Shown here: one piece after another, positions 8,921 through 48,956 of the stretch
Numbering within the stretch: the stretch's first letter is position 1
Layout of the letters: the number at the start of each line of letters is the position of its first letter
NCBI RefSeq assembly: GCF_026684035.1
Contig: NZ_CP113361.1
Location: forward strand, 930,001-994,000
Length of the DNA stretch: 64,000 bases
Reading direction: 5' to 3'
Origin: Methanogenium organophilum
GTDB lineage: Archaea; Halobacteriota; Methanomicrobia; Methanomicrobiales; Methanomicrobiaceae
The notes under the pieces: model-generated
Databases searched by the model: none
Seen by the model: only the letters and a program-made list of their open reading frames with translations
Told to the model about the DNA's origin: nothing
Made by a program: the position numbers and the translations under genes

Positions 8921-9037
8921 GGTGAGACGTATGCCGTTCGGCGGTAAAGACGTTGGCGGTGCGGGGTGACGGTGAATGTAGTGGTGGCGGGGATGAAGAA
9001 AACAGGAATGAGAAGAGGTGCGTACCGGGATTGAATC

Positions 9038-29464: not shown

Positions 29465-32400
29465 TTATTGCACCCCCTCTCCCCTGTTCCACTCCCGGAC
29501 AAGCCGTGCATAGCACGTTTCACAGATACTCGCCCGCTGTGCTTTTGACTGGTAGACTGCAGGTCCTTCGCCGCAGATGGTGCAGCGCCCGAGAGAGACA
29601 GACGAACGGCAAAAGTCCCGGTGGTCAAGGATGCCGGGGAGAGGAGGGGTGCGGCCGGTTTTTGGTCCCTGTCTTCCACACGTTTCCCCGGTGTTCCACT
29701 TTGTCTTCCACTCGTTTTGAGCCGTTTCTGATGATGAACCTGAATTTCGTGGACGAACAGGCGTAGAAACCGTTTGTGTTCCACTTTCTCCCGGATCAGA
29801 GATACCCCCATCCCCCTCCGTACCGGAACCCGGATCGCTGAATGATACCGGAAATGAGTGGAAGACTCCTGTACTATCTGTACATATATCTCTATTACTC
29901 TCCTCTTTATCGAAACGATTGTCAGTATGCGCAGTATTCAGAGTTCCACTTTTTGGCGGATGTGAGTGGAACACGGGTGGAAGAGTGGAACTCTCCGGGT
30001 CACTGTCACCTCCGGTATGCCTGTTATCATCTGCACTGTCATCCCCATCATCGGGTTTTAGCCAGACATCTGACCGGGCCGCCCATGTCTGATACATGAC
30101 ACGGTCAAAGGAGAAGAAATGTTTGTGCCGGCGGATATCAATTCCATAGAGGTCTTCAGCCACCGATGCTGAAATGAGGCTTATTGCAGGGCACTTGTCA
30201 AGGATACCGGCATAGCTTGCCTTCGTGTTGGTGTATCCATGGAGCAGGCGGTACGCCTGTTTATAGGAGAAGCCAAGGGCGTCCTGAAGCGTCCGGGTTG
30301 TGAAGACCTCCAGGTCCATCGCTGCGATAGAGGCAAGTGCGGCCGCTTCGTTTTTGGTCAGCTTCGTCTCCTGTCCGCCGGCGCTCCCGTTAATTGAACC
30401 ATAGAGCTGCTCTGCATAGCGGAAGTCCTCATCTGTTGCGATGAGTGTCCCGTCCGCATCCGTCTCCCGCTGGAGGAAGTGCATCAGGGCGTGGCACTTG
30501 ATGAGGTCAAAGAGCATCGCCGGGTTGCGCCGGTTGTGTGTCGCAGAGAAACAGATCCGTTTTGCATAGGGGATTTTTACCCGGCGCACCGCACCCTTGA
30601 GGACCTCCCAGACTGCCCGGCAGACCGGGATGTCCGCATCGTCATCAAACGAGGGGGAAACGCCTGTTTCAGACTCCTTCAGGTGTTCAAGAACCGCGAG
30701 GTCCTGTGTGGCTGAATCGTCAATCCAGACGGTGAGCATCCGGTTCATCACCTGGTCGTCGCCGATTGCCTCGACTTTTGCGAGCCACCAGACACAGCGC
30801 TCGGGGATGGTGCAGACCTTCAGCTGGCGTTCACGGGAGAGGGTCCGGTGAACGATGGGCTGCCGGAAGTTCGCGGTCGCGGACTTCAGGAGTTCCTGCA
30901 TGTCGTCGGAGAGGGTGACATCATCGAAGAGGAGGACGGTCCCCGCCCGGAGGTCATCGTAATAGAAGAGTGCCTTGTCAGATACCGTGCCTGTCAGCCG
31001 GTATTCCTCCGGGAGCAGCCGGACCATCGTATTGCAGGCATGGGTCTTTCCCTTGCCGGAGTTCCCGGAGATGGCGACGTGCAGGCCGGAGGTGTTCTCG
31101 ACGGACTGGGAGGCAACGGACATGATGAGGCATTCAGCCACCGTCCGGTCGCCGACGTGTTCACGGTGGAAGACGTCGAGGAGGAAGGAAAGCGGGTCGC
31201 CCGTCGTGAGGAGTTCGAGGGCCCGTTTCCGGTGCTCCTGGCCCTCGGCAGGCGTCTCCGCGGGAGGTGAGACCGGCGGGGCGGCTCCCGGCGGTGCAGG
31301 GGAGGGGCCATCCGGGGTACCTCCTTCCCCGGCGGCGACCTCCGTCTCCGCCTGTGGCCGTCCGGCGGTCTGCTTCCCGCCCGCTCTCCCGGCATCTCTC
31401 CTAGCATCTCTCCCGGTATCTCTCTCCCGCTCATACATCGCCCGGAGTTCCGGCCACCGCTGCGTCCCGCCGCCGCAGGAGTCGTGATGGCACCCGGCGA
31501 AAACCGCACCGTTCGAAAACTGGATGGCAAACGCCCCGTCGGTGTGTGCCGAAGAGAAGGGGCAGCGGGCGAGCGAGAAGAGCGTCCCCCCGTGCCACGG
31601 TTTTTCGGCGGCGACCGGGATGTTGTGGTAGTCCAGCCACCAGCGGAGCTCAAGGGAACTCCGCCTGCGGCCCCGGTCCTCTGCGGGAGGTGCCGTGGGG
31701 AGGAGGTCTGCGAGGCGGCGAAGGTCGCCCTCCGCGACAACCCCAACCTCACCCTCTTCCGGGACAGACAAAATGCGGGCCATACGGTGAGGCCGCTCCG
31801 GCGTGCTGTCGCCCTTGCAGGCGGTGGTGCCGTAGAGCTTCCATATCCGCCCGGCGTTGAAGTTCGCCGTGTCGCAGTGGACGGCATCGTCCGAGAAGAA
31901 CCCGTCGAGGACACCGAGACAGCCCTTCACGAGCCGGGTGGCATCATCATCGTTCGGGAGGTCAATCCGATAGAGCAGGTGGGCGCCGTTCCCCGAATCG
32001 GCCCGCACCGGGTCCGGGAAGCCCTGTTTCGCGAGCCAGGCGGCGATCTCTTCCGCACGCCGGAGGGCCGCCGCATGCTCCGCATCGGTCGCGGAGACGC
32101 CCGAGGGACGGACCGGGTCGAGGTCGATGGGGAGCCACCGGCGGCGTATGATGTCCGCATCCGCGGTCGTCGCATCACTGCGAGACAAACGGTGCTTCAC
32201 CCGGTTCGCCCGCCGCGAGAGGAGCGCCGGGTCCACCGTGTTCAGGGTGACATACACCCCGGTCACATCAGAGAATGCGTCCAGCGTCCGTGCACGGTCC
32301 GCAAGCATTTCAAAGTCCGTGAAGTAGCCGCTCTTCACCCCGCCGTCCCCCAGGGCACGGAGTTCGACGACGGAGCCTGAGGGGAAGAGGAGGGAGAGGG

Positions 32401-32593
32401 CGTGGGGGATGGAAGAGTGCAGGTTGGAAGTGGCCGGGTCGGGCCCGGCGGCGGTTCCGGTTACAGTTTCGGTTCCATCAGACACAATGGTGGCGCAGGG
32501 TCGTGTGGTGGGGCTGCCGGTTTCAGGTTCCGGCCCGGATTTAGGTTCTGATTTTTTTGTTTTGGTTTCGTTTTCGTTCACATTTTCGTTCAT
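29465..32593 (-). CDS. Primase-polymerase/helicase-like replication protein of a mobile element
   Basis: About 1,043 residues. After an acidic, low-complexity N-terminus, an archaeo-eukaryotic primase-like domain carries WLPIDLDP (a DxD pair near 157-159), DSGNGAHLLYRI and IWKLYGTTACKG. A central P-loop ATPase has ISGNSGKGKTHACN and VLLFDDVTLSDDM, of superfamily 3/AAA-like helicase style. The last ~30 residues contain a zinc finger (CTICGEGPAVY, ICETCYAR). Fusions of primase and helicase are typical of replicons of plasmids and proviruses. The ribosome site GAGGAG favours ATG 32593. The 5' third is duplicated, degraded, at 39880-40214. Confidence 0.78.
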   Translation of the reverse strand: MNENVNENETKTKKSEPKSGPEPETGSPTTRPCATIVSDGTETVTGTAAGPDPATSNLHSSIPHALSLLFPSGSVVELRALGDGGVKSGYFTDFEMLADRARTLDAFSDVTGVYVTLNTVDPALLSRRANRVKHRLSRSDATTADADIIRRRWLPIDLDPVRPSGVSATDAEHAAALRRAEEIAAWLAKQGFPDPVRADSGNGAHLLYRIDLPNDDDATRLVKGCLGVLDGFFSDDAVHCDTANFNAGRIWKLYGTTACKGDSTPERPHRMARILSVPEEGEVGVVAEGDLRRLADLLPTAPPAEDRGRRRSSLELRWWLDYHNIPVAAEKPWHGGTLFSLARCPFSSAHTDGAFAIQFSNGAVFAGCHHDSCGGGTQRWPELRAMYERERDTGRDARRDAGRAGGKQTAGRPQAETEVAAGEGGTPDGPSPAPPGAAPPVSPPAETPAEGQEHRKRALELLTTGDPLSFLLDVFHREHVGDRTVAECLIMSVASQSVENTSGLHVAISGNSGKGKTHACNTMVRLLPEEYRLTGTVSDKALFYYDDLRAGTVLLFDDVTLSDDMQELLKSATANFRQPIVHRTLSRERQLKVCTIPERCVWWLAKVEAIGDDQVMNRMLTVWIDDSATQDLAVLEHLKESETGVSPSFDDDADIPVCRAVWEVLKGAVRRVKIPYAKRICFSATHNRRNPAMLFDLIKCHALMHFLQRETDADGTLIATDEDFRYAEQLYGSINGSAGGQETKLTKNEAAALASIAAMDLEVFTTRTLQDALGFSYKQAYRLLHGYTNTKASYAGILDKCPAISLISASVAEDLYGIDIRRHKHFFSFDRVMYQTWAARSDVWLKPDDGDDSADDNRHTGGDSDPESSTLPPVFHSHPPKSGTLNTAHTDNRFDKEESNRDICTDSTGVFHSFPVSFSDPGSGTEGDGGISDPGESGTQTVSTPVRPRNSGSSSETAQNEWKTKWNTGETCGRQGPKTGRTPPLPGILDHRDFCRSSVSLGRCTICGEGPAVYQSKAQRASICETCYARLVREWNRGEGVQ

Positions 32594-32729
32594 AATTTTC
32601 ATCTCCTCTGTTCGAGACAGAGAGTGTCCACTATTCACAGAGTATGAGTGTGATAGCAGCGGGGCCTGAGGGAGAAGTCAGTGGTGGTATCGCACACCTG
32701 TGCACATGCACACATGTACGCACTTCTGT

Positions 32730-32780
32730 CAGCCGGTTCCCCGGTGGCGGCTGGCATATGAACGTATTACTTCGGGTAAT
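32730..32780. promoter_or_regulatory. Conserved palindromes upstream of the primase (copy 1)
   Basis: CAGCCG/CGGCTG arms (32730-32735 and 32748-32753) flank CCCCGG, and ATTAC-TTCGG-GTAAT follows at 32766-32780, next to ATATAAG. Both palindromes are kept in copy 2 (40361-40384, 40397-40411), where the second is ATTACC-TTG-GGTAAT. They may be an operator or part of a replication origin. Confidence 0.5.
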
Positions 32781-32927
32781 ATAAGTCTGACTTAACCGGG
32801 GATGGGAAGTTCCAATTCTTTCAATAAAAGAGGGAAGTAAGAGGAATTAACTCCGCGAATTCTTCAGGTGAACTTTGATATACCCTCCCGGTATATTCAG
32901 CCCCAAACACACGGGAGGTGAAAATCT

Positions 32928-33089
32928 ATGGGAAAAGGCAGAGGCGGCGGACGCAGCCCGAATGATGACCGGTCCGATTCAATGAATCCGAACAACCCTG
33001 CATACGATGCTGCAAGGGATAATCGTTCAGACCAATTGAACCCCAACAATGAACGATACCAGGGGGATGAGGAAGAAGATGAGGATTGA
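32928..33089 (+). CDS. Small charged protein (53 residues) of the mobile element
   Basis: The ATG at 32928 follows GGGAGGTG by 7 bp. The product, opening MGKGRGGGRSPNDDRSDSMN, contains two NPNN motifs (MNPNNPAY, LNPNNERY) and an acidic end. Proteins with the same Gly/Arg start and repeated NPNNPAY motifs occur in many archaea and bacteria, function unknown. A frameshifted copy lies at 40594-40736. It is probably expressed separately from the divergent primase gene. Confidence 0.7.
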   Translation: MGKGRGGGRSPNDDRSDSMNPNNPAYDAARDNRSDQLNPNNERYQGDEEEDED

Positions 33090-33272: not shown

Positions 33273-34525
33273 GCCCCCTCCATTTTCCCCTGTTCAAATA
33301 CGCCAAAACCATACTTCAACCGGAAATCTCATTGTCGATCAATTCCCCCCTTCTAAAAGTACACCACCAGATTATTACATTCCAGAATCAGAGAGAATTT
33401 TGACCGCAAAATTGATCGTACAGGAAGGGGATGTCATATTTGGTGAATCAAATGAAATCCCCTTTGATAGTGGATCGTACTGACTCAAAATGGTTGCTCC
33501 TGGAACAGATCATTGGTGCCACAACTTCCCGTCGAGCTAAACAGGAAATGGCAAAACAGGGAATAACACCTGTCAATAATGCCGACTCAATGCTGCGAAT
33601 CCTGATCCTTTCAATGTTTTTCTCTGTTGAAGTAACCTATGTCATCGGAGAACTCAGAAAACGGCGAGAATTACAATTATTCCTCCGCGTAGAGGTTATT
33701 CCGGAAGCAGATGATGTCTATCGTTTTTTCAGTAGGACCGATGAGGATCATTTCATTGCTATGATCAACGGCCTCATCCGGAACCTAAGCAGACCTTCCC
33801 GGAAACGGAAAGAGAAAACAATCATCATCGACGGTTCTGCGATTACCCTTGATATCAAACTCTTTAAAAAACGTCTCACTAAGAAAGAACTTGAGAAAAA
33901 TGATTAAAAATGGGGATTCTCAAATACAGCTGGATATTATCCCGGTTTCAAGCTGACTCTGGCCATTGAATATCCTTCACTTGTTCCTCTGGCTTTTCTC
34001 ATTCATCCTGGATCACCACATGATTCCCGTCTTTTCAATGATATTATGGACGAACTTAAACGGCGGAGAATAATCCAAACAGGAGATGTTGTCGTATTTG
34101 ACCGGGGATACTATTCCTATGAGAACTACGTGAACGGCATACGGGATTATCGAATCGTGCCGGTAATCTTCCCAAAGAAAAAGTTTGATATCAATAAAGT
34201 GATGAGGAAAATGAACTATCCCCTCAATATTTTTTCAAGTCATGAATATCGGAAAATACAGACAATGTATCAGAAGCTTGTTCACAAAATGATGGATCTG
34301 AGAGAACGGTGGCACGAATTTCCTGCTGTACGATCGCTCATTGAAGATCTGTTCAAATTGGCAAAAGATGCGTTCTCATTACGACATTTGCACCGGTATT
34401 CTGCCGTATCTGTGAAAAAATTCGTTGCTATTAATGTACTTTTAGTAGGGGTGGCAATGGCTGCGGGGAATAACGAAAAGAAGCTCATTCAGAGGATGTC
34501 TGAATGGTGAATTTTGGAGGGGGGG
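33273..34525. mobile_element. ISH3-like insertion sequence
   Basis: The element is 1,253 bp. The left end opens GCCCCCTCCATTTTC, and the right end reads TTTTGGAGGGGGGG, giving a 9-bp core inverted repeat (CCCCCTCCA, 33274-33282 and 34515-34523). The 5-bp word TAATA occurs directly outside both ends (33268-33272, 34526-34530) as a target duplication. Length, 5-bp duplication and archaeal host fit the ISH3 family. The transposase is broken by one stop. Confidence 0.8.
33431..34510 (+). pseudogene. DDE transposase with an in-frame stop (ISH3/IS4-like)
   Basis: Both halves are in the same frame and separated by a single TAA at 33905-33907 (codon 159). The catalytic triad is still readable: D134 in IIIDGSAITLD, D224 in VVVFDRGYY and E305 in RSLIEDLFKLAKDAF. 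The C-terminal half starts with KWGFSNTAGYYPGF, in frame. Apart from the stop, the protein is of normal length (about 359 residues). It is inactive unless the stop is suppressed. Confidence 0.8.
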
Positions 34526-34654: not shown

Positions 34655-37600
34655 ATTAACCAAAAGAAGAAGTTTTTTGATTCGATAAGTAAGGGGCCAG
34701 CTTTACTTTTTATCGGTCAAAACCATTTAAAAATACAAACCGGAGAAGATCCATACCTACTTGAAATATTACGGAAGTACGGAAAAGGTCAATTACCCGA
34801 TCAGCCAACATACTATTCGATTTTCGATTCTTTGTCTATAGAAATTACAGACAATGAAATGGCATGGATGCATAACCTCTCCCAAAAAATAGCAATCCCA
34901 CATTGGATGGAATTTGTTGCAAAGTTCGATTGGAGTAGTATTTATACATCAACAATAGATGAAACAATATCAAGAGCATTCCAAAATGATTGGAGGACTG
35001 TACCTAGAATTTCATCAACAAATAATAATCCAAGTGATCAAACTAATCGAAGAAAATTGCATTGTACATACTTATTTGGCTCAATCGTCGATACATCAGA
35101 AAATGAAATTCCCCCTTTTAATGAAGAAGACTACGAGAGCAGATTAGAAGATGAAGCATATCCTCTTTTATCACGAATTCGTCAAACCATTACTCCCCTT
35201 GGAACTTTAGTAATAGATACTTATGATCCAGACAATGACTGGCTTAAGCCAAAACAATTGCGATTGATAATAAAAAAGTTAATCAAGGGACAAACTTTTT
35301 TGTTTAGTGCCACAGATAGCATCAAAGAAATCTTTTCTAAAGAGATTCGAGAAGGAAAAATTATTGTTTTTGATGAACCGCTCTATCACGTACTAAAAGA
35401 AGGAGAGAAACTTGGTAAAGTTAGCTTAGAAAATATTCCCAGTGAAGAATTAAGTCAAATTTATATAGATATTGGCGAAAATACAATAAACGTACCCTCA
35501 AATTTATGGAAGACAATTTCACAATTTGCAGAAATAATTGATTGCAGTTTATTTTTTGAAACAAAGCAAATTACAAAACTTGAGAATGAGATAGAATTTC
35601 AGCAATTTATTGCAAGTTCATCGAATTTTCCAATATGGTCGGGATATATTAGAAATTATCCATTTGAGAGGGATTATGAAAAAGAATTACAAAGTTTAGT
35701 ATTGTCGTGTCTGAAAAAAAAATCAATTGACGAATGCCCAATAATTCTTCACGGTCAAACAGGTAGCGGAAAGACAATTGCATTACAACATTTAGCATTT
35801 AATGTTAGCAAGCTAAAACATCCTGTTTTATTCATTAGGAATGGCATTCAAACAGATTTTGCAACTATTCGGTCTGGCATTGAGGATTTTTGTGAATGGA
35901 CACAAAAAATAGGTGCAAATAAATTATTGGTTGTATGGGATGGAATGTTTCAGCCAAATGTATATCAAAAACAATTTAATATTCTAAGCAATCGGGGAAA
36001 AAAAACTGTTTTTGTTGGAAGTTCATATCATTTAGAAGAAGAAAAGGAATACAAATATTCATCCAACAATGAATGTATTCCCATTGAAGCACCTGTGATA
36101 TTAACTGAATGTGAAATTAATAATCTCATATTACATTTTTCAACTATTTATCCTGATTTCAGTAAAATCCTTAAAACCAATCGCGGAAAATTATCTAGCG
36201 ATAATTTTTTGGTTTATCTATATCGTCTTTTACCACCATCGAGAAGTAATATTCATCTAGGTATTGTCTCAGAAACTGATAGAGCTAAATCAAATATTCG
36301 ATTAGCTACAGCAAGGAAAAAAATTACATTTGGAACAAGTATTTTTAAGTCAAAACTTGTTGAGGCCGGTTTTTCATTACCCGATGACTATATAGAGGAT
36401 GAGAAAATTAATTATTTTAATTCTTCAGATGTATTTACAACACTTTTTCATTATGTTATGGTCCCTGGAAGATTAGGGCAAAAAGTACCATTTGATTTAA
36501 TTCAGAGAACAATAAAATCAAATGGTTACTATGAATTGCTAGAAATACTTGAAAATGAGGACCTTTTTGTTGTTATTGAAGAGAATGATGGCAATTTATT
36601 TATTTCACCAAGGCATACCCTTGAAGCAAAAATTATTTGCAACTGGGATTTTGGAGGGCCAGAAAATGAAGTAGGATATTGTCTAAAATTAATGGACAGT
36701 GTCCACATTATCAATTATGGTCTATCTCATATTTCAGATGAAGATATTGAATTAAAATTTATTTTAGAACTTGTAAAAAATTTAGGGCCTAATGGCCCCG
36801 AAAAAGAAAGATACAAAGAATATTATTATAAAATATCACAAAAATTGGCAGAATTAAGAAAAGAGAAATCAATTATAATCCCTAGCCTAATTTTACAAGA
36901 GGCAAATCTTTCAAGGGAATATATACGGACAAAATCACAATCTGGTTTTGACCTCCCAGAAGATACAGAAAAAATATTAAATAATTCTATTGAATTGCTA
37001 ACTAATGCAATCTTTAATCTTGGAAGAACCAGGAGCTCTCAAAGTAAAAATAATCTAATTGAACAGATGACAGTTGAATTAGCTTCAATAAAATCTACCA
37101 AAATTATTCACTGTTTACAAAATAATATTGAATTTGATATTTCTAATGAATACAAATCATTATTTTCTGATCTCGATAAAATTCTTAATAAATCAACAAA
37201 TGATGAACATGCGCTTGATGTTTATGGTTGGAGTACAATAAACATTATTAAGAATTCTTCGTTGCCTGAAATTGAAAAAACTAAAATGTTGACTCAGGCA
37301 CTTAATGTAATTGAGGTAGGTGAAACCAGTGCTTTTGGAATAAATGAGAGAATCATTACGAGAAAAATGAGTTTGTTTAAGTTAATGGGTGAGGAAGAAT
37401 TATCAAAAGATCTTTTCGATAAATTAAGGGATAATGGCTCTAGAATTGGATATTTATGGCGAGTATTTGAAAATACTTCAGAAATCTCGAATAAAAAATC
37501 ACAATATACAGACAATGAAGTAGAAAAATTTAAAGAAAATTGTCAGTTTTTAGAAAAAAATAGAAGTTTTATCAAAGAAGATAGTGGATGTTTATTTCAA

Positions 37601-38128
37601 CTATTAAAGAGCTGGTGGATAATGAAAACAACTCGACCTATCTTTAATAAAGAAAATGAAAGGCAAACCTTACCTTTTTCAGATGACGATTGGTCCTATT
37701 GCCTAGGTATTTTGGAGGATCTACATCAACTGAGTAAACTGAGAGACAATGCCTCTTTGATGTATATCTATGGAATAGTAAATTTTCACCTAAAAAAATA
37801 TGAGACTTCAAGAAATGCGTTTAAATCAATTGCACACCTAGATTTTGAATATGGAGGAGGTGGAGGTCGCCGCATTATTCGGTACTATTTAGCAAGTACA
37901 GAGGATGGCAGTCCAAAATTATATAATGGGAGAATTAAGTCAGTTTCTGAAGATAATAAGGGATTAATTCAGGTTGACGAAACCCGGAAAGATATTATAT
38001 TTTTCCCACGTGATTTCAGAGAATCCTCTTTAAATGAAGGAGATCAGATGGAACCATTCCATATTGCATTTAATTTCATAAGTCCTGTTGCAGATCCAGT
38101 TCGTCACTACGAATTAAAACATAATTAA
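34655..38128 (+). CDS. SIR2-like domain/P-loop NTPase with a helical C-terminus, putative defence protein
   Basis: The N-terminal ~250 residues look SIR2-like: GPALLFIGQNHLK, KFDWSSIYTSTIDETISRAF, HCTYLFGSIVD. A P-loop domain follows: LHGQTGSGKTIALQH (about 365-379) and KLLVVWDGM (about 422-430). The last 600 residues are helical with TPR-like segments (IYGIVNFHLKKYETSRNAF). This SIR2-STAND layout is known in antiphage NAD-depleting systems. The SIR2 start is open upstream of the first TTG (34832) by 59 codons and contains no ATG/GTG/TTG; GGGAGGA lies 7 bp before ATT 34655, which I take as the start. Very AT-rich, so likely transferred. Confidence 0.7.
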   Translation: MNQKKKFFDSISKGPALLFIGQNHLKIQTGEDPYLLEILRKYGKGQLPDQPTYYSIFDSLSIEITDNEMAWMHNLSQKIAIPHWMEFVAKFDWSSIYTSTIDETISRAFQNDWRTVPRISSTNNNPSDQTNRRKLHCTYLFGSIVDTSENEIPPFNEEDYESRLEDEAYPLLSRIRQTITPLGTLVIDTYDPDNDWLKPKQLRLIIKKLIKGQTFLFSATDSIKEIFSKEIREGKIIVFDEPLYHVLKEGEKLGKVSLENIPSEELSQIYIDIGENTINVPSNLWKTISQFAEIIDCSLFFETKQITKLENEIEFQQFIASSSNFPIWSGYIRNYPFERDYEKELQSLVLSCLKKKSIDECPIILHGQTGSGKTIALQHLAFNVSKLKHPVLFIRNGIQTDFATIRSGIEDFCEWTQKIGANKLLVVWDGMFQPNVYQKQFNILSNRGKKTVFVGSSYHLEEEKEYKYSSNNECIPIEAPVILTECEINNLILHFSTIYPDFSKILKTNRGKLSSDNFLVYLYRLLPPSRSNIHLGIVSETDRAKSNIRLATARKKITFGTSIFKSKLVEAGFSLPDDYIEDEKINYFNSSDVFTTLFHYVMVPGRLGQKVPFDLIQRTIKSNGYYELLEILENEDLFVVIEENDGNLFISPRHTLEAKIICNWDFGGPENEVGYCLKLMDSVHIINYGLSHISDEDIELKFILELVKNLGPNGPEKERYKEYYYKISQKLAELRKEKSIIIPSLILQEANLSREYIRTKSQSGFDLPEDTEKILNNSIELLTNAIFNLGRTRSSQSKNNLIEQMTVELASIKSTKIIHCLQNNIEFDISNEYKSLFSDLDKILNKSTNDEHALDVYGWSTINIIKNSSLPEIEKTKMLTQALNVIEVGETSAFGINERIITRKMSLFKLMGEEELSKDLFDKLRDNGSRIGYLWRVFENTSEISNKKSQYTDNEVEKFKENCQFLEKNRSFIKEDSGCLFQLLKSWWIMKTTRPIFNKENERQTLPFSDDDWSYCLGILEDLHQLSKLRDNASLMYIYGIVNFHLKKYETSRNAFKSIAHLDFEYGGGGGRRIIRYYLASTEDGSPKLYNGRIKSVSEDNKGLIQVDETRKDIIFFPRDFRESSLNEGDQMEPFHIAFNFISPVADPVRHYELKHN

Positions 38129-38142
38129 GGTAAAGTTGAAAT

Positions 38143-38889
38143 ATGTTTTCTAAGACATATGCTAAAATCTCTTCAATAAATAGTATTGTTGATGAAATAA
38201 ACAAAAAAGGCAATAGTTTTTTTGATGATGAAATGCTGATTGTTTATCCCGAAAATCTTAAATGTATCAACTTTACATGTTTTGAAGGTGCTTTTTTCCA
38301 CGTTATTAGCGGTTTATATTTAAAATACATTGATAATAAAAAAAGTCAGGAAAATTTGAAATATTTACTTGAAAAAACTGATATCTATGGTATTTCTCCA
38401 GACATAAACTTAAGGAGCCATATTAAAACAATTCAAACATTAAGAACATTTTTTCAGCATGATATACTTAAGGAAAATAAGAATAACCGGAGTACCAAGA
38501 GAAAAACATACGAATGGTTTCAAAATCAATGTGGAAATGATTTACCAATTACAGAAAATGATTGGAAATTATCTTTAAATTCAATTTTAGATGAATCATC
38601 TCAGTTTTTTTTAGCAATATTAGATTGCGTTATGCAAATATCTAACGATGAAGAAAAGAAATTCATATTAGAAAATTGGACTACTTCACTATTCCCCTTT
38701 TCAGTACATGATGTTTCTGAAATTGTAAGTGAAATATTTGAAGAAAAAGGGATTGAAGGAGTGAATTCATTTAATTATACAAAGAAAAATTATCAAAAAT
38801 TTATTAGGGAACTAAAAATATATGAAGAACCTTCTTCTGAAAATTTAAAACGAATAATAAATAGCGCAACGGCAGATCTAATAATGTAG
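38143..38889 (+). CDS. Unknown partner of the SIR2-like NTPase
   Basis: A 248-residue mostly helical protein, Lys- and Asn-rich, with no recognised domain. Segments such as RSHIKTIQTLRTFFQHDIL and WKLSLNSILDESSQFFLAIL recall HEPN-like all-alpha folds, but the R-x4-6-H motif is not clear, so I make no call. It starts 14 bp after the NTPase stop and shares its AT-rich base use. It is probably the second subunit or a regulator of the same system. Confidence 0.65.
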   Translation: MFSKTYAKISSINSIVDEINKKGNSFFDDEMLIVYPENLKCINFTCFEGAFFHVISGLYLKYIDNKKSQENLKYLLEKTDIYGISPDINLRSHIKTIQTLRTFFQHDILKENKNNRSTKRKTYEWFQNQCGNDLPITENDWKLSLNSILDESSQFFLAILDCVMQISNDEEKKFILENWTTSLFPFSVHDVSEIVSEIFEEKGIEGVNSFNYTKKNYQKFIRELKIYEEPSSENLKRIINSATADLIM

Positions 38890-39475: not shown

Positions 39476-39907
39476 TTGCGGGTGCACCATCAGCAATTGC
39501 CCGGCTACAGCAACAATTATTGCGCATCAGACATATTACAAAAAAATGTTTCCATGAAATGGGGGAAATGTGTGACTGAGAATGCATCTGATTCTGAAAC
39601 AAATAGAACCGGAAAAATCATAGTAAACTCAATACCTGATGGAGTATCTGTTAAGCTTGACGGAAAGGATACAGGAAAAACTCCTGCAACTCTTGAAAAC
39701 ATAACAGCAGGGTTTCATAAAGTAGAAGTAAATCTGCCAGATAATCGTCAGATATCAAGAAATATTTCTGTAAGTGCCGGCAATACTTCAACAATTTGCC
39801 TTAATAAATATACTGAAAAAGAAGTCAATATAATAAAAGCTATTGGGATATATATCGCATTGACCTCCATCATGTGTACAGCGCCGGGTCCACCGCGTTC
39901 AGGGTGA
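39476..39907 (+). pseudogene. PEGA-domain protein fragment
   Basis: Residues about 45-115 form a PEGA domain (GKIIVNSIPDGVSVKLDGK, TPATLENITAGFHKVEV, YTEKEVNIIKA). PEGA domains are beta-rich surface modules. No signal peptide is visible, and the last ~15 residues are read from the repeat sequence that starts at 39880, so the 3' end has been replaced. This is a truncated, chimeric frame rather than an intact gene. Confidence 0.6.
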
Positions 39908-40214
39908 CATACACCCCGGTCACATCAGAGAATGCGTCCAGCGTCCGTGCACGGTCCGCAAGCATTTCAAAGTCCGTGAAGTAGCCGCTCTTCACCCCGC
40001 CGTCCCCCAGGGCACGGAGTTCGACGACGGAGCCTGAGGGGAAGAGGAGGGAGAGGGCGTGGGGGATGGCGGTTGTTTCGGTTTCGGTTCCTTCAGACAC
40101 AATGTTGGCGCAGGGTTGTGTGGTGGGGCTGCCGGTTTCGGGTTTTGGCCCGGATTCTGTTTCGGTTCTTGTGGTTTCTGTTTCAATTTTGGTTTCGTTT
40201 TCGGTTTCGTTCAT
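39880..40214 (-). pseudogene. 5' fragment of a second primase-helicase gene
   Basis: The frame matches the first ~120 codons of the gene at 29465-32593 (HALSLLFPSGSVVELRALGD, KSGYFTDFEMLADRARTLDA) and then ends at the junction with the PEGA fragment. The acidic N-terminal linker has lost blocks relative to copy 1. It cannot encode an active protein. Confidence 0.8.
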
Positions 40215-40360
40215 AATTTTCATCTCCTCTGTTCGAGACAGACAGTGTCCACTATTCACAGAGTATGAGTGTGATAGCAGCGGGGCCTGAGTGAGAAGTC
40301 AGAAGTCTGTGGTGGTGTTGTCACCTGCGTGCGTGTTTGTGTGTTTGCACGCCCTTCTGC

Positions 40361-40411
40361 CAGCCGGTTCCCCGGTGGCGGCTGGCATATGAAGGTATTA
40401 CCTTGGGTAAT
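40361..40411. promoter_or_regulatory. Conserved palindromes (copy 2)
   Basis: CAGCCG (40361-40366) with CGGCTG (40379-40384), then ATTACC-TTG-GGTAAT (40397-40411). The stem of the second palindrome differs from copy 1 at paired positions, so symmetry has been kept while sequence changed. Confidence 0.45.
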
Positions 40412-40593
40412 ATAAGTCTGACTTTACCGGGGAGATGGGATGGGGTTGGAGGAGAGGTAGAAATTATTGGGGACGCAGGAGGACGCATCTCAAAAGAGAG
40501 AATGGAACGATTCGGGAAAGGGCATTAAACAGGAACAGGGGTTTCTTTCGACACAGAGAGATAAGGATAACGGTAGTATGGTGGTGAAAATCT

Positions 40594-40736
40594 ATGGGAA
40601 GAGGCGAAGGTGGTGGACGCAGCCCAAATGATAACGGTCCATGAATCCAAACAACGAAACATACCATGCGGCGATGGATAAACATGCGGACCAGTTGAAC
40701 CCCAATAATGAGAGATACCAAGGGGATGAGGACTGA
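40594..40736 (+). pseudogene. Frameshifted copy of the small MGKGRGGG protein
   Basis: ATG 40594 opens MGRGEGGGRSPNDNGP and then meets a stop, because one base is lost near the NDD/NDN codons and the GATTCA codons are missing. The rest (NPNNERYQGDED) is still readable in another frame to 40736. Confidence 0.7.
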
Positions 40737-40993: not shown

Positions 40994-43129
40994 TTAATCA
41001 TCTAAGTGGATATAATATCGAGGATCTGGATTGTTAATATCACCCCAACGTGAATCAGCTGACCAAGCCCCATCCGGTTCTTCTTTTTTTCGAGTTTCTA
41101 CAGTAATACATTGTAAAGTTGGATCATATCTTAATAAATTATATTGAAGAGGTATGCCAGGGATTTGTTCTTTAACAGGAGCACCAAATGTCCCAGCACC
41201 AATAAAAGTAATATTTCTATTACCCCGATTGCGAAAATTATAACTTGCTTTATGAATATGCCCATGTAAACAAATTTTGAAACCGTTATCTGCTAATAGT
41301 TCTTGAATCTCTTCATTTTCAATCATCTCCCTGCCTGTAAGAGGATGATGCAATACTCCAATTTTCAGCCAACCATCATATTTTGGACCAATAATTTGAG
41401 AGATGGCCTTTGATAATGCATCCGTGTTTACATGTGATCTATTTCTATGTGGTTCATAATGATCAATATTCCAAGATGAATTAAGAGCCAGGAAAAGAAT
41501 ATTATTATCCGGAAATGTGCTTATAACACCTTGATCAATATATTCCAGAGGGTAATACGTATCATAAATTGGAAAATGGAAATGGTTGCTAAAATTATCA
41601 AATCTATTCTTGTAACAGTTTTCATCTTTTAATAAAACTCCATTGCTATCCCCAGGAATGAATGAACCCCGTTCTAAATTAGGGGGGCAACTCTCATATT
41701 TGGTATATTTATACGCTTTTTCCGAAATACCCCAATTTAGATCATGGTTACCAGGAACAACGATAATCTGTTTGCGGTTCAGATCAATTATTTCCATCAA
41801 TTCTTCTATTAAAAAAATGGCTGCCTCATATTCTTCTTGAGTCGAATATGTACCAATATCCCCTGAAATAATTAAAAAATCAATTTTTTGAATTTTAAGA
41901 TTATTTAGTAAATCAGTCACAAGTTGAACAGAATATTTTCGAGAATCACTTTTTGTTCCAAGATGGATATCTGATAAATGAAGAATATGAATTAGTTCTG
42001 AGTTGTCTTTTTCTATTTTTTGTTTTAATTGGGTTACCTGATATTTATTATATTTTTCAAGTTTTTTTACAAAATCAGAATAATTGCAGAATTCCAAATG
42101 CCAGATCTTCGTATACCCTTCAGAATAGTCCTCCGCAAATTTTTTAACAATTGGATATACTAATTGAATTTCTGGATGCATTCGATTAAAAACAAAAACT
42201 CCAATTGTCTGCAATTTACTTCCCGTAGGGGATATTACACACTTGTGTGAATACTTATAGTCATTATAAATACCCTCCAATATTTTTACTAATTCAATAT
42301 ACTCAAAAGTTCTTGCCTCTTTATGATGTATGTGTTTAATATTGCCAATTAATGATTTCTCAATTCTTTCATTAACCCAGCGAATAGCATCCGATCGCCA
42401 TTCATTCACACTATTGTGCGGGACACCCTCAATTTCAATTAAGTATTGAGGATTCATTTCATTCAACAATGCCCCTAATTCTTGATGATTAAATGTTGGA
42501 AAAGCGATCATCAATAGAGGACTGCCTGCCATAGTAATACTAGACAATTCGTTTATACAAACCAATTTATAAATGTCCTTGGTTAGGAAAGTCGGAAGAG
42601 GTAATGGATAGTTATGATTTTCTTTTTCACTTAGAAATTTTTCTTGGGTCGGGTGATAAATTTCAGCTTCGGAGTAAATAATATGAATATTTCCTTGAAA
42701 ATTCGATAGTAAATTTAAAAGAAAGATGATTAAAAACTTTGAAAAACTACTAACATCGATTATTATATCATTTGTGCTATTGATCACTTTTTGAATTTTA
42801 TTAAATTCACTATAAAATGTATCAGGGTTTACTCTATTATAATTCAACCATTCCATTTTATTTATTGTGAGTGTATTGGCCAAATCACCAAATTCAGTCT
42901 CTCGATTTTTGGGGTTATATGGTTCATATTTAATGCCAAAAACATATGCAAATTTTTTATTCCTTAATGCCATTTTATTGAGAAATGCAAAACCTCTATC
43001 TTCAAAACCTGCAGCTCCAATAAAAATAGCATCCGTAGGAATATTGCTGGTTCTTAATTCATTTATTGATGGTAAAACCTCATCGAAATATCGACTAGCT
43101 TGTTCAGAAATTTCTCCAAATTCAGTCAT
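40994..43129 (-). CDS. Two-domain protein: Rossmann-like N-terminus and calcineurin-like metallophosphoesterase
   Basis: The C-terminal half (from about 380) is a metallophosphoesterase with all signature blocks: LHLSDIHLG (Asp387, His389), IISGDIG (Asp424), VVPGNHDLNWG (Asn461, His462), VLHHPLTGRE and ICLHGHIHKAS. The N-terminal ~350 residues are a separate alpha/beta unit (IFIGAAGFEDRGFAFL, IIDVSSFSKFLIIFL, PQYLIEIEGVPHNS, CVISPTGSKLQTIGVFVFNR) that resembles the CARF/Rossmann-like sensor folds but is not assigned. Its start overlaps the kinase-ATPase stop by 4 bp. It likely cuts a nucleic acid or cyclic nucleotide on demand. Confidence 0.72.
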   Translation of the reverse strand: MTEFGEISEQASRYFDEVLPSINELRTSNIPTDAIFIGAAGFEDRGFAFLNKMALRNKKFAYVFGIKYEPYNPKNRETEFGDLANTLTINKMEWLNYNRVNPDTFYSEFNKIQKVINSTNDIIIDVSSFSKFLIIFLLNLLSNFQGNIHIIYSEAEIYHPTQEKFLSEKENHNYPLPLPTFLTKDIYKLVCINELSSITMAGSPLLMIAFPTFNHQELGALLNEMNPQYLIEIEGVPHNSVNEWRSDAIRWVNERIEKSLIGNIKHIHHKEARTFEYIELVKILEGIYNDYKYSHKCVISPTGSKLQTIGVFVFNRMHPEIQLVYPIVKKFAEDYSEGYTKIWHLEFCNYSDFVKKLEKYNKYQVTQLKQKIEKDNSELIHILHLSDIHLGTKSDSRKYSVQLVTDLLNNLKIQKIDFLIISGDIGTYSTQEEYEAAIFLIEELMEIIDLNRKQIIVVPGNHDLNWGISEKAYKYTKYESCPPNLERGSFIPGDSNGVLLKDENCYKNRFDNFSNHFHFPIYDTYYPLEYIDQGVISTFPDNNILFLALNSSWNIDHYEPHRNRSHVNTDALSKAISQIIGPKYDGWLKIGVLHHPLTGREMIENEEIQELLADNGFKICLHGHIHKASYNFRNRGNRNITFIGAGTFGAPVKEQIPGIPLQYNLLRYDPTLQCITVETRKKEEPDGAWSADSRWGDINNPDPRYYIHLDD

Positions 43130-45588
43130 AGATATTTACTCAACTTATTACTGCCAATCCCTTTTTTGCATCTATCACTTTCCATATATGATTCAAACTC
43201 ACTTGGATTATTTAACAAAAGATTTAATTCTTCAGTATCGAGGCCAATATTATCTCTTTTAGACGGTGATAATCTAAATGTGGGAATCAACAATTTTCTC
43301 AAATAGAGCCTCGGCGCAACAACACCCCGTTGGCTTTTCCCCCTAGAATCCTTAATAAAAATCGAGTAACGTAAAAGCCCATCATATATTTTTTGAGACT
43401 TTTCGTCTAGGGTAGGACGTTCACGCATCTCTATTCTATATGCTTGCCAAGGAGGGCTTTTTGTTTGATTTTTAGAATCCTTATGAACTAAGTACCAATG
43501 TGCAACATTACCAAAGGCCTCAGTAACTTCTCTTAAATCTTGCCCAATATCTGGAACCATTTCAATTTTATCTAAAAATTCATTACCCATTTCTTTAACT
43601 ACTTTATTTTGTTTTGCTGCATCGATTGGCAATTTAACATCTGGAGTCATAAAAGCTTTTAATCCCCCATTTGATTCAAAAATACGTTTAATTAGCGATA
43701 AAATTTGAGCAACATCACCCGAGCATAATCCCATAATTACTTGATGCCCAGAATAAATTTCATGTTTTCCTTCTCTAATTTGTTCTGCCATATGGACATA
43801 TATTTTCAGAGGGCTATCTCCTAATATCTGTTCAATATTGTGATATTTCTCGTGGATCTCAGAATTTTTTAATCGGTTATTAACAACTTCATATAAGAAA
43901 TCTTTTCCAGCTTCCTCATTACCAAGGAATATATCTCCAAAATCAACTGTCAGATACTCTCGACCTTCTTCCAATAATTTCTTTTTTGAGTTATATGGAT
44001 GGAAAGATATGAAACTCTCTGTTGACACTTTAAAGAAATATTCTGAGCCTGCGCTTGGGAAAAAGATGAAATCATGCAATGTTTCTTGCAAATCTATTGA
44101 AATGCTGGGTGAAGAATAATCATCTAAAAAGAAATAAATAACCCGCCCCTTCATCCAATGGATTTCATTCTGTAAAAGTTTACATACATTTTTTAAAAAA
44201 TCCATTGGTAATAGATCTGGTTGGTTATTTTTATTATCACCAAACCATTGTCTTAATATTACTTTTTCTCCTAAAACAAAGGCGATTAAATGTTCAATTA
44301 CATTTGTTCCGCAGGGAGGGACTGTATATGAAGAAACATATTTCGAGAACAATTTTTGCAATGTATATATTGTATTTTGATCTAATTCAAATCCCTCAAT
44401 ATCCTTTGCGACATTAAGTAGATCTAAAATCTCAGAAAAAATTGATAAATTAAAATAATGAATAATACCCCTTCTTTCATCATCTGCAATATAACCATTC
44501 AAATATGGAAATGCAAAATATAAATCATTGCAATGGTAATAAATACCGATATAATCATCTGAAAAATCATCTAATTTTTTCACTTTATTTCCTAAAATTT
44601 GTGTTTTTAGGCTAATATTTCTAAATATTGTTGTTTTTCCACAACCCCTCGGACCAGTCAAAACGGTATTATTTTTTGAAAGAAGAGATGAATAGATTGG
44701 GAAATTTTTTGAATATAATAACTGCAAAAGTTCAAAAGAATCACCAATATCTTCGCACCTTAAATAATCAAAAGGATCCGTAAGTTTTTGCATCGTTGAG
44801 ATATTTTTTTCTTTATATTTTTCAGGAATATGGTAAAGAAGTGAAAGTAATTTCAAAGGTTTCCGGACATAGTCACCTTCAACAGTAGGATCTGTTTCTA
44901 ATACTTTTTTTGTGAGAAAATCCTCAATAAAGACATCATAAAAATATCTGTCTTTCCCATCCAATATGGAGTAGTCAATAACTTCAAGTAGCGATTGGCA
45001 AATCAAGGCAAATTGGCTATAATCATCCTTTAAGACTAAATTATCTAGGTGTCCCAATTTAAAATCAAAATCAGTTACTTTAAGTGTGGGAATATCCGGA
45101 TTAATCGTAAATGGATCATGTAATATTAAAATATTGTTTCCATTCAAGAAACCATGACTATTTATCCCAATTTTTTCTATTGCAACAAATAATTGTAACA
45201 TCTGGTCAGCAAACAATTTTATAAATGGTATCGTAATATTTTTATTATTGCCACTGACATATTCCAAAAGAGATTTGCCTTCAAGGTATTGAGAAAATAC
45301 ACAAATTATAGATTTATTTTCTAACTTTATTTCTATTGGATCATTATAATATAATATTTGAGAGATTCCTTCTAATTTTCGGGCATTTATTTTTATTTTG
45401 GAATTACAATCGTTTTTTAATAAGTCTTTGGGGATCAATTTACACAGTACGTAAATATTTTCAGTTTTGTTATATGCCCTATATACAACTCCTAACAATT
45501 CTCTTCGAATCTCACTTTCAAGGGTATATCCATCAATTTCTACCCCCACATATTCATTTTTTAAGGGATGCCACTCATTTGTCATCAT
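43126..45588 (-). CDS. Pseudokinase-AAA ATPase fusion, putative defence NTPase
   Basis: An 820-residue protein. Residues 15-240 follow the protein-kinase fold (GYTLESEIRRELLGVVYRA, Lys50 in VLCKLIPK), but the catalytic loop is SHGFLNGNNIL (144-154) instead of HRD-x-K-x-x-N, and DFG is DFD (173-175). It is probably a pseudokinase. A P-loop ATPase follows: VLTGPRGCGKTTIFRN (Walker A 312-319) and VIYFFLDDYSS (Walker B 483-490), like ORC/STAND-type ATPases. The rest (500-820) is a helical and winged-helix-like tail. AAGGTGA lies upstream. Very AT-rich. Confidence 0.7.
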   Translation of the reverse strand: MMTNEWHPLKNEYVGVEIDGYTLESEIRRELLGVVYRAYNKTENIYVLCKLIPKDLLKNDCNSKIKINARKLEGISQILYYNDPIEIKLENKSIICVFSQYLEGKSLLEYVSGNNKNITIPFIKLFADQMLQLFVAIEKIGINSHGFLNGNNILILHDPFTINPDIPTLKVTDFDFKLGHLDNLVLKDDYSQFALICQSLLEVIDYSILDGKDRYFYDVFIEDFLTKKVLETDPTVEGDYVRKPLKLLSLLYHIPEKYKEKNISTMQKLTDPFDYLRCEDIGDSFELLQLLYSKNFPIYSSLLSKNNTVLTGPRGCGKTTIFRNISLKTQILGNKVKKLDDFSDDYIGIYYHCNDLYFAFPYLNGYIADDERRGIIHYFNLSIFSEILDLLNVAKDIEGFELDQNTIYTLQKLFSKYVSSYTVPPCGTNVIEHLIAFVLGEKVILRQWFGDNKNNQPDLLPMDFLKNVCKLLQNEIHWMKGRVIYFFLDDYSSPSISIDLQETLHDFIFFPSAGSEYFFKVSTESFISFHPYNSKKKLLEEGREYLTVDFGDIFLGNEEAGKDFLYEVVNNRLKNSEIHEKYHNIEQILGDSPLKIYVHMAEQIREGKHEIYSGHQVIMGLCSGDVAQILSLIKRIFESNGGLKAFMTPDVKLPIDAAKQNKVVKEMGNEFLDKIEMVPDIGQDLREVTEAFGNVAHWYLVHKDSKNQTKSPPWQAYRIEMRERPTLDEKSQKIYDGLLRYSIFIKDSRGKSQRGVVAPRLYLRKLLIPTFRLSPSKRDNIGLDTEELNLLLNNPSEFESYMESDRCKKGIGSNKLSKYL

Positions 45589-45945
45589 TTTTCACCTTTT
45601 AATTTTTTGACCATCTCCACTTTGAAGTGTTCTTTGATATTCTGAAAATAATTATCCAAAGAGAACAATGAGCAATATTTTTAATTTTTATGATTACTTA
45701 TTTATACCACTATTTTCAATTATGATTATTTCCACATATGAGTCTTTCTAATTGAATCCTCATTATCACATGAGCGGATCCACTCAAAAATCCCAAATAT
45801 CACAATAAGTAACGGAATATTCCAACAACAGCTCTCTTTTTATTTTTTTATGTGCAACCCATTTTTCCACAGTCTATTTCTTTACAAATAATGTACTCCA
45901 CAATTCTTACTCCTTAGAATAGATTCATAGGAATTTTTAATATCA
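45589..45945. other. AT-rich gap upstream of the pseudokinase-ATPase gene
   Basis: 357 bp separates the methyltransferase stop from the start of the kinase-ATPase gene. The segment is very AT-rich and probably holds the promoter of the two-gene unit. No coding frame is convincing. Confidence 0.5.
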
Positions 45946-47076
45946 TCATCTTACCTTCCGAATTACCACAATCCATTCTTTTTTTGTACAATTACATTCC
46001 TTCCGAACCCTACGAATGTCTGGAACTATATCTTCAACGGCATCACAAATTTCCAAGTTTCCAATTTGATCTGTTACTTCTACTAACGCTTGTGCAGTGC
46101 TGTATGAATGCTTCGTCCTTTTCACATTCCCAACAACAAATACAAAATATCCATTTTTTTTAATTGCTGGATAAAGATTACTCAGAGCATCCTTCATTAA
46201 AATTTTAAATTCTCCAATATTTCGTGGATTGGATTGATCGATTTCTTTAAATTGACTAATACCTAAAAACCATAATCTTAGACGATTATCTCGTGCATAA
46301 TCTAATGCGTTCATATATGGGGGGCTTGTTATCACGGCATCGATAGATTCATCTTCCAAGTTAATTTTTTGAGCAGATTCTAATAAACAAGCTCTATTTA
46401 ATGAAAAATCCAGTTCGGGAAATTTACGATATGATCGAACAATTTTCTTAATAATCCTTGATTCAAGATCCCTATATTCATATAATTCAGGGAATTGATC
46501 TTTTGGAAATTTTTTTGTACGCAGATATGGAACCATATGACTTGCAGGGTAAGAAAGGAACCCAGGTCGTTGATGATGGATAATGCCAAGAAGATTCGCC
46601 CTTATAAAATATTCATTTGATGTTCGCAATAACGTGTTAAAGGCGATGCATTCCTTCAGTGTGTCTGGATGATAGAAATCTTTCACCCAATCAGGAATAT
46701 TAGATAACGAAGTATTATTTGAGAGTATTTTCATCGACGATAAATAATCCCATGTTTTTTCTAAAGCCTCTTCAAGTGATTTATATGGATGCAATTTTGC
46801 ACATGTTAATGTATAGGCGTATGGATTTATATCACAAGAAACAACATTTCTGCCCAAAATCCAGCTTTCTAAAGGGATAGTTCCAGATCCTGAAAACGGA
46901 TCCAAAATCGTATCCTTTGGTTTCGAGAAGGTTTGAACCAATTTTTTTGCAAAAGCTGGTTTAATCTTACCAATGTAAGGTGAGATTTGATGGATATTAC
47001 AATCTTGATTTTGTGTATATCCTGACCATTCAATCGGATTTAACCCAAAATTATTCTGATCAGTAATCATTGTCAA
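45946..47076 (-). CDS. N4/N6 DNA methyltransferase
   Basis: A 376-residue amino-methyltransferase. Motif I is TILDPFSGSGTIPLE (59-66 core), the SAM-binding neighbour is VVSCDINPYAYTL, and motif IV is VITSPPYMNALDY (SPPY 251-254). SPPY is typical of N4-cytosine enzymes and DPPY of N6-adenine, so N4-cytosine is favoured. No restriction endonuclease gene is adjacent; the next genes are the pseudokinase-ATPase and the phosphoesterase, which suggests a modification function marking self DNA in a defence system, or a solitary methyltransferase. Confidence 0.85.
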   Translation of the reverse strand: MTMITDQNNFGLNPIEWSGYTQNQDCNIHQISPYIGKIKPAFAKKLVQTFSKPKDTILDPFSGSGTIPLESWILGRNVVSCDINPYAYTLTCAKLHPYKSLEEALEKTWDYLSSMKILSNNTSLSNIPDWVKDFYHPDTLKECIAFNTLLRTSNEYFIRANLLGIIHHQRPGFLSYPASHMVPYLRTKKFPKDQFPELYEYRDLESRIIKKIVRSYRKFPELDFSLNRACLLESAQKINLEDESIDAVITSPPYMNALDYARDNRLRLWFLGISQFKEIDQSNPRNIGEFKILMKDALSNLYPAIKKNGYFVFVVGNVKRTKHSYSTAQALVEVTDQIGNLEICDAVEDIVPDIRRVRKECNCTKKEWIVVIRKVR

Positions 47077-47454: not shown

Positions 47455-47745
47455 TCATATAATTGAAAATACAGTTTTTAGCATTTTTATAATGACTATG
47501 GCAAAACCCAGATATACCAATGAACCTGCAAAATCGCCCAAAGCCTGAGTAAATGCAATTAATCCATGCAGTAATTCAAATATTTCTTGAAGATCAGAAT
47601 TCCCCGATACAATATTCTCAAATAATGATTCAATCAGGGAAAAATGCAGATCATCAAAGACGCCGGTGATTTGATCCAAAACCTCTGAAAACAGAGAAGA
47701 CAACAACCCTTCCAGCCAATTCCAAATTACCTGACCATATCCCAT
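47455..47745 (-). CDS. Small membrane-associated protein (96 residues)
   Basis: Predicted amphipathic helices over the first 50 residues (WNWLEGLLSSLFSEVLDQI) and a C-terminal hydrophobic segment (GDFAGSLVYLGFAIVIIKML). It could be a membrane-pore protein or holin-like, but there is no family match that I recognise. Nearby genes are small and probably mobile. Its stop is close to the start of the 50-residue gene. Confidence 0.45.
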   Translation of the reverse strand: MGYGQVIWNWLEGLLSSLFSEVLDQITGVFDDLHFSLIESLFENIVSGNSDLQEIFELLHGLIAFTQALGDFAGSLVYLGFAIVIIKMLKTVFSII

Positions 47746-47807
47746 GATCGATAAAATAGCAACCTTCAGTTAATATCCTTCCCGTCGCAGGGTGAAAGTA
47801 ATACAAT

Positions 47808-48091
47808 CAAAAAAAAAGAAATCAGGCCTTACTCTTCGCCTTGATCTTCTTCAGGCAAACGTTTTCGTCCCGTTCCATTTCGCGGGGCCACATTTTGATG
47901 AATGCAGAGGCCTCCTTGAGCTCCGGGATAACCGTGAACCAGAAGTGCGTTGACACGGCGTTTCGTGCTCTCGATTTCGTTTAAGAGACGCTTCATCGTC
48001 GTCTCAATCCCAGCCGCCCGGATGATCTCGTCGACCAGTTCCTCGAAGGCACTCGCGGTCTCATCAATGACTGCGGAGGTGCCGAGCACGC
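47808..48091 (-). pseudogene. atpD 3'-end fragment, copy 1
   Basis: This segment matches the last ~270 bp of atpD (49780-50056), from the stop region to CCGAGCACGCCA, with scattered changes and one frame change. It starts in the middle of the gene ([20 protein letters not shown]) and has no promoter. It is one of three copies of the atpD 3' end in 2.2 kb. Confidence 0.8.
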
Positions 48092-48161
48092 CAAGAATGC
48101 AGACTCGTCAAAGAGATATACTGAAACCTTATCATCTAAAAAATGCAGATACCAACTACCA

Positions 48162-48823: not shown

Positions 48824-48879
48824 ACAATGAAAAATCCATTTCTCACCTGATATATCTTGCTAATTAAATAATGAATTAA

Positions 48880-48956
48880 AAAAAAGAAAATCAGGCCTTA
48901 CTCTTCGCCTTGATCTTCTTCAGGAGAACAAACTTCCCGTTCCATTTCATCAGGCC
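48880..48956 (-). pseudogene. atpD 3'-end fragment, copy 2 (short)
   Basis: About 75 bp match the end of atpD (GGCCTTACTCTTCGCC to CCCGTTCCATTTC), together with ~15 bp of A-rich sequence before the stop. It ends at the start of unrelated sequence at about 48956. Same orientation as the intact gene. Confidence 0.7.

Follow-up and report, generated by a model that had tools for sequence, protein, structure and literature searches.

Proteins in which a kinase, an AAA ATPase with an arginine inside the P-loop and a CARF domain are fused have been described as a family (Makarova 2014; PMC4012209), represented in PADLOC by the models CARF6 and CARF6--CARF_STK_AAA. We analysed three genes related to this family in a stretch of 64,000 nucleotides from Methanogenium organophilum (contig NZ_CP113361.1, positions 930,001 to 994,000; hereafter the window, numbered from its first letter), which an earlier note, made from the sequence alone, had proposed as an undescribed defence system. 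The three genes resemble the described family in providing a kinase, an AAA ATPase with the P-loop arginine and CARF6; they differ in that the genes are separate, a methyltransferase is a fixed partner, the kinase is dead and CARF6 is fused to a phosphoesterase. We consider it probable, at roughly 60%, that the three genes belong to a widespread defence-type cassette inherited as a unit, and that here, with the kinase dead, the phosphoesterase carried by CARF6 took over as effector.

The ATPase is a member of the ORC-CDC6-like family (PF24389; 134.7 bits, Pfam cut-off 27), whose systems with PRTase-CE (PF24390) or HD-CE (PF24391) contain the same ATPase family together with a CARF6-like protein (loci L113, L114 and L118 of our comparison) and differ from the window in their effectors. 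These systems may, reportedly, have been described together by Burroughs and Aravind (2020, J Bacteriol). The metallophosphatases of DS-8 and DS-9 (DefensePredictor) are validated anti-phage components whose catalytic mutants lose defence, and the DS-8 enzyme resembles the cGAMP-cleaving SMPDL3A (PMC13092281). The cassette shares with DS-8 and DS-9 a calcineurin-like metallophosphatase accompanied by an NTPase or partner enzyme. However, membership of DS-9 was rejected, since the match reaches 78.6 of the 420 bits set as the NCBIfam cut-off for DS-9A, no HAD partner is present, the domain is joined to CARF6 and the neighbours are a kinase-AAA ATPase and a methyltransferase. The features of the locus are as follows.

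45946..47076, minus strand: DNA amino-methyltransferase (N6/N4 type), 376 aa (Pfam N6_N4_Mtase, 1.6e-15)
45589..45945, no strand: AT-rich gap of 357 bp between the methyltransferase and kinase-AAA genes, which in relatives are mostly separated by a few bases or overlap
43126..45588, minus strand: pseudokinase and ORC-CDC6-like AAA ATPase, 820 aa (PF24389, 5.6e-39; PADLOC CARF6--CARF_STK_AAA, 7.9e-27)
44782..45588, minus strand: N-terminal pseudokinase domain, residues about 1-269 (Pkinase match of only 0.0097)
40994..43129, minus strand: fusion of CARF6 sensor and calcineurin-like phosphoesterase, 711 aa (profile matches to both halves)
42004..43129, minus strand: predicted CARF6 tandem Rossmann domain, residues 1-375 (PADLOC CARF6 profiles, AlphaFold2, Foldseek, signature residues)
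41210..41989, minus strand: metallophosphoesterase domain, residues 381-640 (PF00149, 3e-16; DS-9A-type NF053862, 4.3e-22)
40994..41209, minus strand: conserved C-terminal tail of the phosphoesterase subfamily, residues 641-711 (GAWSADSRWGD...), common to related phosphoesterases

The three open reading frames (ORFs) were found exactly where the earlier note had placed them, and the second and third overlap by 4 bp. Their GC content is 0.31, as compared to 0.54-0.55 elsewhere in the window. The host genome is complete (a single contig of 2.65 Mb).

When the fusion protein was used as single query, no matches were obtained in the genome and viral collections, because the patterns were too specific. 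An alignment of the ATPase solved this: scanning 85,000 species, one genome each, with the AAA alignment gave 52 loci in Myxococcales, Proteobacteria, Verrucomicrobia, Acidobacteria, Clostridia, Bacteroidetes, Bathyarchaeota, methanogens and others, with Methanocorpusculum and Methanoregula among the archaeal relatives. Adding loci from whole genomes, plasmids and viral contigs brought the number of ATPase loci assessed to 61, and the main counts given here rest on these, on 63 aligned CARF6 proteins and, for Cas10, on 43 carrier genomes. A CARF6 gene on the same strand directly follows the ATPase in 55 of the 61 loci; the remaining six stop at a contig edge before the next gene. The most frequent junction between the two genes is an overlap of 4 bp, which is also found in the window, and the methyltransferase gene precedes the ATPase within 1 kb in 48/61. 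That dozens of unrelated genomes share this gene order is more than chance would give. The ATPase, CARF6 and methyltransferase trees are congruent (rho 0.86, 0.63 and 0.79, each reached by 0 of 1000 permutations), and each places the window genes as sister to those of L093. The core of the cassette consists of the DNA methyltransferase, the ORC-CDC6-like AAA ATPase that carries the effector, and the CARF6 sensor; it is a defence-type unit and not an orphan. The genes thus form a conserved unit, of which the methyltransferase is a member. The earlier note had staked its proposal on three points, and on all of them the evidence is favourable: the pair occurs together elsewhere, its context is not a housekeeping one and the metal ligands of the phosphoesterase are conserved.

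The methyltransferase contains the S-adenosylmethionine motif DPFSGSGT (59-66) and the catalytic motif TSPPY (250-254), and is 37-41% identical to the enzyme found in the equivalent place in other archaea and in Bradyrhizobium. No restriction endonuclease partner was found among the three genes or in the neighbouring two-gene module, for which reason restriction-modification was rejected. Likewise, no nuclease recurred among the neighbours of the relatives' loci.

The ATPase protein (AlphaFold2 model, predicted local distance difference test [pLDDT] 86.5) has a Walker A motif with arginine, GPRGCGKTT (312-320), and a Walker B motif, FFLDD (486-490). Its N-terminal kinase domain is the sole one of 61 without the catalytic Asp of the HxD loop: F147 stands where the 60 related kinases all have D. 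Three further near-invariant positions are altered (E64K, H149N and the glycine of DFG, which reads DFD), and the PADLOC models of the defence kinases mad6/PD-T4-6, matched by 31/33 family members, do not match the window protein. An active Ser/Thr kinase was therefore rejected for this protein. The loss of the HRD and DFG residues reported in the earlier note is correct for the catalytic Asp, H149 and the DFG glycine, but not for the metal-binding Asp of DFG (D173), which is retained together with the beta-3 Lys (K50) and N152. Through Lys50, Asn152 and Asp173 the pseudokinase may still bind nucleotide. In most members of the family the effector is probably an active Ser/Thr-type kinase on the ATPase.

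The alpha/beta half of the third protein, which the earlier note had correctly seen joined to a phosphoesterase and had left unassigned, can be assigned as a predicted CARF6 domain with tandem Rossmann folds. PADLOC CARF6 profiles match it at 1.4e-20 to 3.4e-21 (PDLC01917, 3.4e-21), as they match 33 of 34 family members, and its AlphaFold2 model (pLDDT 92) shows two Rossmann lobes. Among the Foldseek matches in the PDB, the informative ones were Can1 (6sce, TM-score 0.46), Csm6, Cam1 and ring nucleases including Sso2081. Unrelated Rossmann-like proteins are among the matches with the lowest E-values, so that the fold match by itself is moderate; profile and motif evidence concur with it. The signature E43, R45, D125, Y152 and K305 is kept in the window protein, and E43, R45, Y152 and K305, the last being the basic residue after strand 4, are identical in all 63 CARF6 sequences. 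Divergent CARF6 members give sub-threshold matches to the Card1 CARF model of Pfam (1.5e-4 at best), and no solved structure related to CARF6 by sequence was found.

As the earlier note had stated, the phosphoesterase is complete: all five calcineurin-like motifs (DxH, GD, GNHD, H and GHxH) are present, the metal ligands lying in LSDIH (385-389), SGDIG (422-426), GNHD (460-463), HH (594-595) and HGHIH (622-626). In other genomes, phosphoesterases of this subfamily, with the same tail, make up the end of WD40-Roc/Ras proteins, occur in phosphoesterase-STAND proteins and stand beside a STAND-TPR protein; the subfamily is a mobile effector-like module used by other conflict systems. Related archaea also have short ORFs that retain no more than the final 45 residues of the tail, at 62-67% identity (L084, L085, L087 and L090); these may be remnants or a stand-alone tail.

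The place that the earlier note had given the phosphoesterase in a general system could not be upheld, as the addition was found only in this genome, in one of the 63 CARF6 proteins. No second CARF6-phosphoesterase fusion was present in 393 genomes of the phylum; a plasmid search with the fusion gave half-matches only (CARF6 alone or phosphoesterase alone), and phage records gave no match. The closest CARF6 relatives, L092 (53% identical) and L093 (49%), both end where the phosphoesterase of the window begins and lack it, and L093 combines a methyltransferase, a kinase-AAA ATPase with the intact loop HNDLHEGN and CARF6. Fusion and kinase loss are therefore both derived in the window. In L092, the end of CARF6 overlaps a gene (8752-9561) for a protein of 269 aa, which starts with a hydrophobic stretch, has no match in Pfam and is possibly yet another effector.

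The enzyme attached to this core also changes in other relatives. A TIR domain replaces the kinase in L023 (8680-13208, with CARF6 and methyltransferase), and in L115 (7997-11489) SIR2 stands in the kinase place, as SIR2-AAA followed by CARF6. PRTase-CE genes precede AAA and CARF6 in L113 (1940-7622) and L118 (724-6977), and an HD-CE gene does so in L114 (4712-9767); C5-cytosine methyltransferases lie near these systems. In L117 a fused kinase-AAA-CARF6 protein stands beside a probable C5-methyltransferase gene. Pairs of ORC-CDC6-like ATPase and CARF6, most of them with a C5- or N-type methyltransferase, form a family in which the effector slot can be exchanged. This combination of a fixed core with a changing enzyme is the main reason why we read the cassette of the window as a case of effector exchange.

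The context of the cassette is of the defence type, a point that the earlier note had proposed to check. The cassette is located behind atpD, a gene of the A-type ATP synthase. Pieces of the 3' end of atpD recur in the window at about 47805-48093 and 48874-48956; such repeats were also present in four of the five same-genus genomes inspected (L120, L121, L122 and L123). At this site, other genomes of the genus carry AT-rich cargo matching models of SIR2/ThsA, TIR/ThsB with PDC-S60, the Stk2/PD-T4-6 kinase, GmrSD-like Orf5/HEC-06, OLD/GajA and PglZ, and the cassette itself is absent from all six same-genus relatives. The 3' end of the protein-coding gene atpD is a hotspot of integration or recombination, with defence cargo that differs per genome, and we read the site as a genus-level defence hotspot. 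The only recurrent neighbours of meaning among the loci were DruA (6 loci) and thyX (4 loci). DruA, of Druantia, adjoins the kinase-AAA and CARF6 pair in a branch without the methyltransferase; three of the six calls were made by Pfam and the rest by clustering with those three.

L063 2211-3332; L064 10920-12131; L065 5793-6971; L069 10920-12206; L070 12084-13271; L075 10920-12131: DruA

No DruA was found beside the window genes, and DruE was not searched for.

Because of the analogy with DS-8 and DS-9, the phosphoesterase fused to CARF6 is most likely the effector in the window. We put at even odds the fuller account, a natural effector exchange in which the kinase lost its activity but stayed on as a regulatory pseudokinase, and the CARF-tethered phosphoesterase acts without type III CRISPR and is guarded by the methyltransferase. 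The sequences show that the cassette is conserved, that the kinase is lost, that the fusion exists with its motifs intact and that the site is a hotspot; as to sensing, activation, substrate and antiviral effect, we infer the following course. The proposals of the earlier note, that the ATPase senses infection, that the phosphoesterase cuts a nucleic acid or cyclic nucleotide and that the methyltransferase may mark self DNA, are of this inferred kind. The methyltransferase would mark self DNA or otherwise set the resting state, and the AAA-CARF6 pair would detect invasion as unmarked DNA or as a nucleotide ligand bound by CARF6. The ATP-bound assembly, with the pseudokinase as a nucleotide-binding scaffold, would then release the phosphoesterase, which would hydrolyse a nucleotide or nucleic acid that the virus or the cell needs.

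Several points weigh against effector exchange. The evidence for it is one fusion, seen in one genome, and the kinase may have been lost independently of the gain of the phosphoesterase. The kinase is unproved as effector in the canonical cassette, and the fold likeness of CARF6 to Can1 is moderate. Neither CARF6 nor the kinase-AAA protein has an NCBIfam equivalog, and no antiviral assay of any cassette member was found in the literature searched. In the same literature, CARF6/STK-AAA with methyltransferase or DruA was not found, although the two likeliest papers were not covered and a prior description is possible. The word "undescribed" in the earlier note does not wholly hold for the pair, for which the PADLOC models and PMC4012209 exist.

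The phosphoesterase might instead be an off-switch that degrades the nucleotide ligand of CARF6, in the manner of ring nucleases, with the damage done by another part, such as the ATPase acting on DNA. Its covalent link to a ligand-binding domain, the ring nucleases among the structural neighbours of CARF6 and the resemblance of the DS-8 enzyme to SMPDL3A are all consistent with this. Nevertheless, as the kinase is dead, the operon shows no further enzyme that could serve as effector, the subfamily occupies effector-like positions in other conflict proteins, and DS-8 and DS-9 require metallophosphatase activity for defence (PMC13092281), which makes the off-switch rather unlikely. A decaying system, in which drift destroyed the kinase and the fusion arose by accident, without function, would account for the four altered kinase positions, for the 357 bp between two genes that have hardly any spacing in relatives and for the truncated repeats around the cassette. 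We hold it to be improbable, given that all three ORFs are intact, that Walker A/B, the methyltransferase motifs, the CARF6 signature and the phosphoesterase motifs are kept, and that the loss, unlike decay, is confined to one domain. Still less probable is a regulatory or epigenetic unit of methylation-coupled phospho-signalling, unrelated to viruses: kinases and methyltransferases do occur as regulatory enzymes and no virus assay was found for any member, but the cassette is patchy (7-8 of the 232 genomes of the class), sits in a variable AT-rich defence hotspot, partners with DruA and admits TIR and SIR2 in the kinase slot. Finally, an accessory arm of type III CRISPR, in which CARF6 would answer cyclic oligoadenylate from Cas10, has the CARF fold in its favour and was rejected as largely refuted, since Cas10 models scored above cut-off in only 4 of the 43 carrier genomes (Csm1 type 1, Cmr2 type 3), were missing from the other 39 and were not matched above cut-off in the complete host genome, so that type III CRISPR is not the usual source of the CARF6 ligand.

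CARF6 is a CARF clade not tied to CRISPR. If effector exchange is the right reading, a fixed core (methyltransferase or DruA, ORC-CDC6-like ATPase and CARF6) would serve a replaceable effector (kinase, TIR, SIR2 or phosphoesterase), and the signal sensed by the core, once found, should apply to all effectors, a proposal that can be tested. The kinase-dead, phosphoesterase-fused member would be a natural domain-swap experiment that points to the output part.

Two further comparisons were made. The phosphoesterase matches the N-terminus of PDLC05051 (1e-24) of the PADLOC candidate PDC-S60, and in a sister species the hotspot holds a TIR protein that matches the remainder of PDLC05050; PDC-S60 differs in being, by its name, a single-gene candidate, without CARF6 or methyltransferase. 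With BREX type 2/Pgl and MADS the cassette shares the logic of methyltransferase, kinase and ATPase, and the relatives' kinase resembles mad6, whereas that of the window has no mad6 match at 1e-5. BREX/Pgl was rejected, as the three genes contain no PglZ, PglX or BrxC match.

The thyX gene (FAD-dependent thymidylate synthase) adjoins the cassette in L016 (9184-10107), L037 (826-2259), L060 (10992-12029) and L062 (10741-11664). Elsewhere in the window, direct repeats of about 750 bp (32223-32969 and 39880-40635), the second copy being the truncated 5' end of a 1057-aa gene (29465-32638), flank a separate AT-rich module. A second putative defence module (34832-38889) encodes a 1098-aa nSTAND-type ATPase (PF25199, just below cut-off) and a 248-aa protein, which gave no PADLOC match, and it is adjoined by transposase-like fragments at 33431-34510. 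A small hydrophobic ORF (MGYGQVIW...) is common to the atpD hotspots of two genomes, at 47455-47745 in the window and at 2028-2408 in L123.

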